39,329 bases of DNA from a virus, in the IMG/VR virus record IMGVR_UViG_3300043409_000417, positions 1 to 39,329 of that record; one strand, 5' to 3'. Numbering within the stretch: position 1 is the stretch's first letter; each line of letters starts with the position of its first letter. Positions 555-4,036 of the stretch are shown in pieces. A program made the position numbers and the translations under genes. Under the pieces are notes generated by a model. That model was not told where the DNA came from. It did no database searches and saw only the letters and a list, made by a program, of their open reading frames with translations.

Positions 555-670
555 GGTCATGGAATTGGACACCCAAGGCCTACCGCTGGCGCGATAACTT
601 AATCGCGGGCGCGTGTCTAATTGGGTGCGCTGGCGTGATCGTGCTAATGTTTTGGCTAGGCACTAACTAA
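551..670 (+). CDS. Single-pass membrane peptide, 39 aa
   Basis: The ATG overlaps the preceding stop by four bases. A basic, Trp-rich N-terminus (residues 1-18) is followed by one hydrophobic segment of about 20 residues that runs nearly to the C-terminus. This predicts an inner-membrane peptide with its N-terminus in the cytoplasm. Its TAA stop (668-670) sits at the 5' edge of the hammerhead ribozyme, so self-cleavage would leave this cistron on the upstream RNA. Function unknown. Confidence 0.55.
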   Translation: MRSWNWTPKAYRWRDNLIAGACLIGCAGVIVLMFWLGTN

Positions 671-671
671 A

Positions 672-721
672 GATCGAAACGGCGCGAGCCGTCACCCCGT
701 AGGGCGGGGTCTGATGAGATC
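672..721 (+). ncRNA. Type II hammerhead ribozyme
   Basis: All parts of a hammerhead core are present in order. GATC (672-675) is one strand of stem II, followed by core GAAA (676-679). Stem III is ACGGC/GCCGT (679-683 with 688-692) with a GCGA loop. The cleavage-site base is C693, preceded by U692. Stem I is ACCCCG/CGGGGT (694-699 with 705-710) with loop TAGGG. Core CTGATGA is 711-717, and GATC (718-721) pairs back to 672-675. TAA 668-670 may extend stem II with TTA 725-727 across an internal loop. The open stem is II, so the topology is type II. Every invariant core base matches; predicted cleavage is after C693. Confidence 0.92.
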
Positions 722-746
722 AGATTATGAAAGATAGGGGCACGAC

Positions 747-3548: not shown

Positions 3549-3648
3549 TCTATTATCACTTGAGCGTATGACCGAGATAGTAAAGCTATCACTAGAGATT
3601 GAACCGTATTGGGAGGTGGACAATGGTCAGGAAACTAAGACCGCGTGA
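3541..3648 (+). CDS. Possible small protein, 35 aa
   Basis: A GTG at 3541 overlaps the upstream stop and an AAGG lies about ten bases before it. The frame runs 35 codons and overlaps the start of the WhiB gene by 26 bases. The middle is an amphipathic, Leu/Ile-rich helix. This is the continuous-coding solution for the 74 bases between its neighbours, but it could be a chance frame. Confidence 0.4.
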   Translation: MLNLLSLERMTEIVKLSLEIEPYWEVDNGQETKTA

Positions 3649-4036
3649 GCAGCAGACAATAGATGCACAAAAACTATTCAGGCACATGACACTAGACGGA
3701 TCACTATGGGAGGGCGCACTATGCGCCAGCTCGCAATTCCCTGACCGCTGGTATCCCGAGATGCGCGGTAATGCTATCCCTGATGAGGAAATTATAAGTA
3801 TCAGTATGGCGTTACAGATTTGTGATGCCTGCCCGATCCGAGAACAATGCCTAGAGATAGGTATGCAGGAAATAGATGTACGATACGGTATCTGGGGCGG
3901 TATGTTGGCAGGCGAACGCCTGGCACTACGCGCCAAGCTAACAGGTAAGAAGCCTACCTTGGTAGATCAAGAAGCAACAAGCGGTGCGCGTAGAGTACGC
4001 TCACGCATAAGTAAGTTGAATGGAGTTAAGTTATGA
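3623..4036 (+). CDS. whiB: WhiB-family iron-sulfur transcription factor, 137 aa
   Basis: WhiB-like proteins are actinobacterial 4Fe-4S regulators that bind the primary sigma factor and DNA, and phage versions can redirect host transcription. The four cluster cysteines are C34, C67, C70 and C76 (CDACPIREQC), followed by the G[VI]WGG turn GIWGG at 89-93 and a basic tail (110-137) typical of the DNA-binding end. The ATG at 3623 is favoured over the upstream 3599 by GGGAGG seven bases before it. It sits mid-operon, with its stop overlapping the next ATG. The family is nearly restricted to actinobacteria and their phages, so it is the best host indicator in the window. Confidence 0.93.
   Translation: MVRKLRPREQQTIDAQKLFRHMTLDGSLWEGALCASSQFPDRWYPEMRGNAIPDEEIISISMALQICDACPIREQCLEIGMQEIDVRYGIWGGMLAGERLALRAKLTGKKPTLVDQEATSGARRVRSRISKLNGVKL

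Follow-up and report, generated by a model that had tools for sequence, protein, structure and literature searches.

A predicted type II hammerhead ribozyme between early genes of an uncultured phage, and its relatives in environmental viruses

Judged by its sequence, the element at positions 672–721 (+ strand) of the window, the 39,329-base IMG/VR virus record analyzed here as a whole, is a genuine type II hammerhead ribozyme lying between two early genes. Related ribozymes are found between genes in several hundred environmental virus contigs, and the group is large and poorly catalogued. It is probable that the ribozyme acts in cis to cut the polycistronic early mRNA, with insulation and processing of the cistrons as its most likely function. 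The window probably derives from an uncultured phage with an actinobacterial host, because its terminase is 44–45% identical to those of Streptomyces phages and a WhiB-like transcription factor gene (3599–4036) is present in the same rightward operon.

Anatomy of the ribozyme and its place in the early operon

The ribozyme, its component parts, and the flanking features are as follows.

316–344, + strand: sigma-70-like promoter (TTGACA-17-TATGGT) heading the rightward early operon; consensus scan, 10 of 12 matches
551–670, + strand: upstream gene, a 39-aa peptide beginning MRSWNWTPKAYR with one hydrophobic segment; stop codon TAA at 668–670, one base (A671) before the ribozyme
672–721, + strand: type II hammerhead ribozyme, from sequence reading, Rfam, our own covariance model, and alignments
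672–675, + strand: 5' strand of stem II, GATC, flanked by A671; partner of 718–721, with 4 bp in every aligned homologue
676–679, + strand: core G12 A13 A14 A15.1 (GAAA), invariant in alignments A1 and A2 but included in the search motif
679–692, + strand: stem III, ACGGC (679–683) with GCCGT (688–692), 5 bp including the A15.1-U16.1 pair, loop GCGA (684–687); compensatory changes
693–694, + strand: predicted cleavage site between C693 (position 17) and A694 (position 1.1), by the UH rule; C at position 17 in 395 of the 401 homologues listed
694–710, + strand: stem-loop I, 17 nt, ACCCCG (694–699) with CGGGGT (705–710), 6 bp, loop TAGGG
711–717, + strand: core C3 U4 G5 A6 U7 G8 A9 (CTGATGA), from sequence reading
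718–721, + strand: 3' strand of stem II, GATC, followed by A722; sequence reading and alignment
711–723, + strand: alternative hairpin CUGAU-GAG-AUCAG, which excludes the hammerhead fold and hides the core; minimum free energy (MFE) structure and covariation of the RUCAG tail
736–740, + strand: probable Shine-Dalgarno sequence AGGGG of the downstream gene, 7–11 nt 5' of its ATG, from sequence reading
747–1049, + strand: downstream gene, 100 aa, ATG at 747; relatives are 32–94% identical

The two halves of the hammerhead core, CUGANGA (711–717) and GAAA (676–679), occur in the correct order, and U692 followed by C693 provides a UH cleavage site. Loops close stems I and III and stem II is open, the type II topology, in both the sequence and the cmscan alignment. 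The original prediction, made from the letters of this DNA, had described the core, the stems, the GCGA loop, U692/C693, the 6-bp stem I, and the GATC/GATC stem II, and direct reading bears out every base that it assigned. Its statement that all invariant core bases are present, in order, on the transcribed strand agrees with the sequence, the covariation, and the homologues, and the positions it proposed for mutational controls, G716 and A678, are correctly chosen as G8 and A14. It had also placed the element 3' of the membrane-peptide gene and 5' of the gene at 747, an arrangement that hundreds of homologues share. U700 and G704 could add a wobble pair to stem I; both sit at nearly invariant loop positions of the group. 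Shuffles contain sigma-70-like sites at least as often as the promoter region does, and the promoter at 316–344 is to be read as a consensus match only. No Pfam or PHROGs match was found for the 100-aa downstream protein.

Covariation and the wider group in environmental viruses

An Rfam type II check had been proposed with the original prediction. RF02276 (Hammerhead_II) was the best family in a 301-base stretch searched with an E-value threshold (28.8 bits, E 4.7e-4), but this is below the curated 37 bits, and at the gathering cut-off nothing is reported in the window. The 37-bit value is a curator's choice and corresponds to no structural feature; the element scores below it because the Rfam model expects a different stem II and a pseudoknot. 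Our own covariance model, built from 35 homologues, gave 65.4 bits (E 2e-18) on the window, whose sequence is a member of the training set, and found no second copy there.

A chance resemblance to a hammerhead would be favored by the bare CTGANGA...GAAA pattern, which is about as frequent in the window as chance predicts; the case therefore depends on the whole architecture. Stems I and III form in 97 of 99 distinct matches to a loose pattern, which fixes only stem II GATCGAAAC (with GAAAC), GTC, and the core CTGATGAGATC, compared with 16 of 19,800 shuffles. In two alignments, of 31 and 35 distinct sequences, the 15 pairs of stems I–III have 100% paired cells, with 108 and 153 double-change cells (34 and 41 in shuffles) and both-side changes at 10 and 12 of the 15 pairs, which amounts to covariation over the three stems. 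The aligned sequences had been preselected for some pairing, but the loose-pattern matches that pair almost without exception were not. The full architecture with its covariation, the stem pairing relative to shuffles, and the homologues in several hundred contigs rule out a chance motif, to which we give practically no weight.

IMG/VR was scanned with three motif patterns that differ in stem II (at least about 120 stretches each), and at least 401 distinct ribozymes were recovered from the fetched loci. Several of their traits were independent of the search pattern. Stem-loop I is exactly 17 nt in 312 of the 401 members listed, and within this class loop position 7 is T in 310 and position 11 is G or T in 288. 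Among the listed members, A precedes stem II in 310 and follows it in 267. A contact between the loop I U and a flanking A may be inferred. A 4-bp pseudoknot between loop I and the tail is not enriched in the 17-nt class (17.9% compared with 17.8% in shuffles), and the window tail after stem II holds no complement to the loop TAGGG.

The group shares the open-stem-II permutation, the core, and the UH site with the type II hammerheads of RF02276 (Perreault et al., 2011, PMC3088659), as well as their intergenic location among phage and prophage genes and their clusters flanking individual genes. In the published type II consensus, however, a pseudoknot between loop I and the 3' tail is a majority (not universal) feature, whereas the present group, with no such enrichment, usually has a 17-nt stem-loop I with an invariant U and a 4-bp stem II, usually with A on both sides. 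The Rfam cut-off misses nearly all of the members tested, catching 2 of at least 60 distinct ones in 20 loci. Haloviruses HF1 and HF2 carry another lytic-virus hammerhead, 13 nt 5' of a start codon (HHphage; PMC3088659), but theirs is an archaeal-virus element with a variant core, whereas the core here is canonical.

Stop and start codons are placed with great regularity around these ribozymes. In 294 of 394 listed cases (75%), the stop of an upstream ORF (30 codons or more) falls between −2 and +3 nt relative to stem II, compared with 2.6% at random positions and 13% at the antisense edge, and a TAG stop is often completed by the motif's own AG. The next start codon follows stem II at a median of 24 nt, with a Shine-Dalgarno-like motif of at least 3 nt before it in 357 of 385 cases. 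The proteins encoded downstream are varied and mostly unknown small ones; the few that could be named include ArdC-like antirestriction proteins, DNA methyltransferases, and an AAA ATPase. Two loci carry long arrays on one strand, with one type II hammerhead before most genes: eight at L071:3035–6289, most of which precede a similar GGAGAACCAC-ATG leader, and eleven at L333:2224–7239. Clusters in prophages were seen in 2011 and those tested were active (PMC3088659), so the arrangement is known in kind, and what is new here is its scale and regularity.

BLAST searches with four ribozyme-bearing loci returned no named phages, and no hammerhead was found in a distant named relative (L145). Xanthomonas phage Xp15 (L320) has a GGAC-class motif match in its first 2.9 kb. 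Among 84,980 species genomes, scanned with a strict pattern (somewhat stricter than those for IMG/VR), the motif occurred on one contig, from a Pyrinomonadaceae metagenome-assembled genome (MAG). This contig, JALHNX010000012.1 (52,642 bases; L126, L127), has four strong ribozyme copies distributed over both strands and is probably a phage or prophage contig within the bin. The occurrence of the motif on one contig only among the species genomes suggests that its distribution is mainly viral.

Close relatives and the likely function of the ribozyme

Relatives of the same phage group were found via the downstream protein and via DNA (blastn). The original prediction had named absence of the core from close relatives as evidence against it; the core is missing from one relative, L004, but is kept in the nearer L002, L003, L027, and L037. 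L002 has CCCC/GGGG for CGGC/GCCG in stem III and ACACCG/CGGTGT for ACCCCG/CGGGGT in stem I with pairing intact, and stem I of L003 (TACCCG/CGGGTA) still pairs. L027 matches at 87% identity over 53 nt. In L037 all 54 nt of 671–724 are unchanged, while most of its nearby early region gives no blastn alignment. Homologous WNW(T/M)P(K/R)A membrane peptides stop just 5' of the ribozyme in all four relatives, whereas in L004 the peptide ends before a different hairpin. L027 and L037 have another downstream gene, related between the two and unrelated to that of the window. The peptide gene is thus constant and the next gene variable, so the ribozyme goes with the 3' end of the peptide gene and not with the gene that follows.

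L004 has the peptide gene as well as the downstream gene (70%), and the place of the ribozyme between them is taken by a nested stem-loop, CTTGTC...GACAAG (L004:2909–2970), which has no Rfam match up to E 5 and reads as a natural replacement of the ribozyme. L128, with a downstream protein at 69%, has a plain GC hairpin and no hammerhead. The absence of the ribozyme from these two, at about 70% in the downstream protein, indicates that it is dispensable. More distant relatives of the downstream gene carry a three-way-junction RNA in the same leader (GCCCCCG, a hairpin, a GGTTCRMGACC hairpin, CGGGGGC, then RCGA), at these positions:

L130:2799–2843; L131:1002–1049; L139:2887–2937; L142:2895–2947; L006:524–572: three-way-junction RNA, one copy each
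L143:2449–2496 and 2681–2724: three-way-junction RNA, two copies preceding two genes

This RNA shows covariation, with 12 double-change cells compared with 3.1 in shuffles, and in the three loci scanned it has no Rfam match up to E 5.

During transcription of the operon, stems III and I of the ribozyme would fold first and stem II would then close (672–675 with 718–721), allowing the RNA to cut itself between C693 and A694. The upstream mRNA, with a small ORF and the 39-aa membrane peptide, would end just past the stop codon in stem-loop III with a 2',3'-cyclic phosphate, and the downstream mRNA would begin with a 5'-OH and stem-loop I. Since stems I and III are both closed in the type II arrangement, each product would keep a hairpin at its new end. 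After the cut, the hairpin at 711–723 would be free to form about 12 nt 5' of the Shine-Dalgarno sequence. The element may therefore be a natural insulator and processor that gives each cistron its own structured ends and frees the start region of the next gene from upstream sequence. Pairing of CCCC (695–698) with GGGG at the Shine-Dalgarno sequence in the predicted downstream product was considered and dropped, as it is absent from L002 and L003.

The original prediction had the mRNA split with a 5'-OH on the downstream part, which is expected from hammerhead chemistry and from the activity of published prophage arrays: these cleave in vitro, and those of A. tumefaciens also in E. coli (PMC3088659). 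Alongside the sequence, covariation, placement, and scale observed here, cleavage and its chemistry are taken from the family, and an effect on mRNA stability or translation is presumed. The same 2011 survey included some hammerhead-like RNAs that were inactive (PMC3088659), and several features count against cutting and insulation in the window: a score under the Rfam cut-off, a stem II of just 4 bp, an MFE fold other than the hammerhead, the absence of the ribozyme from L004 and L128, and a promoter that is a consensus match only.

An engineered parallel is RiboJ, which raises transcript and protein levels (PMC6206723). RiboJ and synthetic ribozyme insulators (PMC6206723, PMC7536230) share with the present group a hammerhead 5' of the ribosome binding site and a product with a 5' hairpin; RiboJ frees a gene from upstream RNA, a function that the arrangement here would fit, and the predicted hairpin-ended products match the feature credited with the higher expression seen with RiboJ. 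RiboJ is, however, the type III sTRSV ribozyme, extended by a 23-nt hairpin and positioned behind a promoter, whereas the present ribozymes are natural, type II, and located between cistrons. Viroid and satellite hammerheads differ further, in that they cut multimeric replication intermediates of circular RNAs and not the mRNA of a DNA phage.

Two alternatives bear on whether cutting matters to the phage. The hairpins could serve mRNA stability or spacing as an uncut intercistronic stem-loop, with catalysis weak or irrelevant; the unrelated stem-loops of L004 and L128 at the same place and the three-way junction of the distant relatives would agree with this. We regard it as improbable, given that the non-pairing core bases are fixed in five close relatives though the stems change, and that the search imposed neither the fixed 17-nt length of stem-loop I nor its U and G/T loop positions. 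Alternatively, the ribozyme might be a mobile cassette copied between intergenic sites to no benefit of the phage, as near-identical copies inside one phage (L040, L013) and the same ribozyme beside unrelated downstream genes in L027 and L037 could indicate. Such a cassette appears very improbable: no associated mobility gene was seen, the stems drift by paired changes, and the stop-to-start placement is very regular. A tie to one gene function is ruled out by the variety of downstream proteins and by the other gene that follows the same ribozyme in L027 and L037. The same observations, with L004 having both flanking genes and no ribozyme, reduce the earlier idea of separate control of early cistrons to a guess, and the data are better matched by generic processing or insulation than by control of any one gene.

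The core-hiding tail and a possible off state

Core position 7 of hammerheads is free to vary, and in viroid and satellite hammerheads alternative pairing of the core can give an inactive structure. In the window, the MFE fold pairs CUGAU (711–715) with AUCAG (719–723) at −22.7 kcal/mol, compared with −21.6 kcal/mol for the hammerhead. The palindrome of the GATC class itself partly creates this core/tail pairing, for which reason the GTCC and GGTC classes were also retrieved. An exact complement of the core (CUGAN) follows stem II in 22% of the GTCC class (0.5% with shuffled tails) and 27% of the GGTC class (2%). Where the RUCAG tail lies outside stem II, its first base covaries with core position 7 (T-A 46, C-G 7, T-G 2, C-A 1; Fisher p 1.2e-6, kinship ignored). 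Covariation at a position otherwise free to vary argues for a real pairing that excludes catalysis. This covariation is new here and suggests a conserved inactive fold. Once the RNA is cut, the hairpin could release the upstream strand and render cleavage one-way; formed earlier, it could be an off state.

A tentative extension of the insulator view, and not a result, is that the group has a built-in off state in the RUCAG tail, with timed one-way cleavage set by ribosomes at the stop and start codons; we regard this as possible but doubtful. In its gated form, competition between the hammerhead and the CUGAU/AUCAG hairpin would combine with ribosomes to make cleavage report translation of the neighboring genes: a ribosome terminating at a stop codon that touches stem II would cover GATCGAAA, and the tail could be masked by a 30S subunit on the following start codon. 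The tail covariation, the excess of core complements over shuffled tails, the near-equal energies of the two folds in the window, and the stop codon adjoining stem II in three quarters of cases are all consistent with gating. We nevertheless think it rather unlikely, because, depending on class, between about half and four fifths of homologues lack the tail, the tail counts ignore relatedness, the stop-ribozyme spacing may reflect genome compactness alone, and the hairpin may come into play only once the RNA has been cut, as a trap against religation.

What hammerheads do in prokaryotes has been described as an open question (PMC6155905). The present group offers handles on this role in its strict order of stop codon, ribozyme, and ribosome binding site, its arrays, its relatives with and without a ribozyme between the same genes, and its covarying tail. 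Rfam-based annotation misses the group, which may be a natural source of compact 50-nt insulators. If the off state is real, these ribozymes would be a natural regulated system, common in environmental phages and overlooked by Rfam cut-offs.
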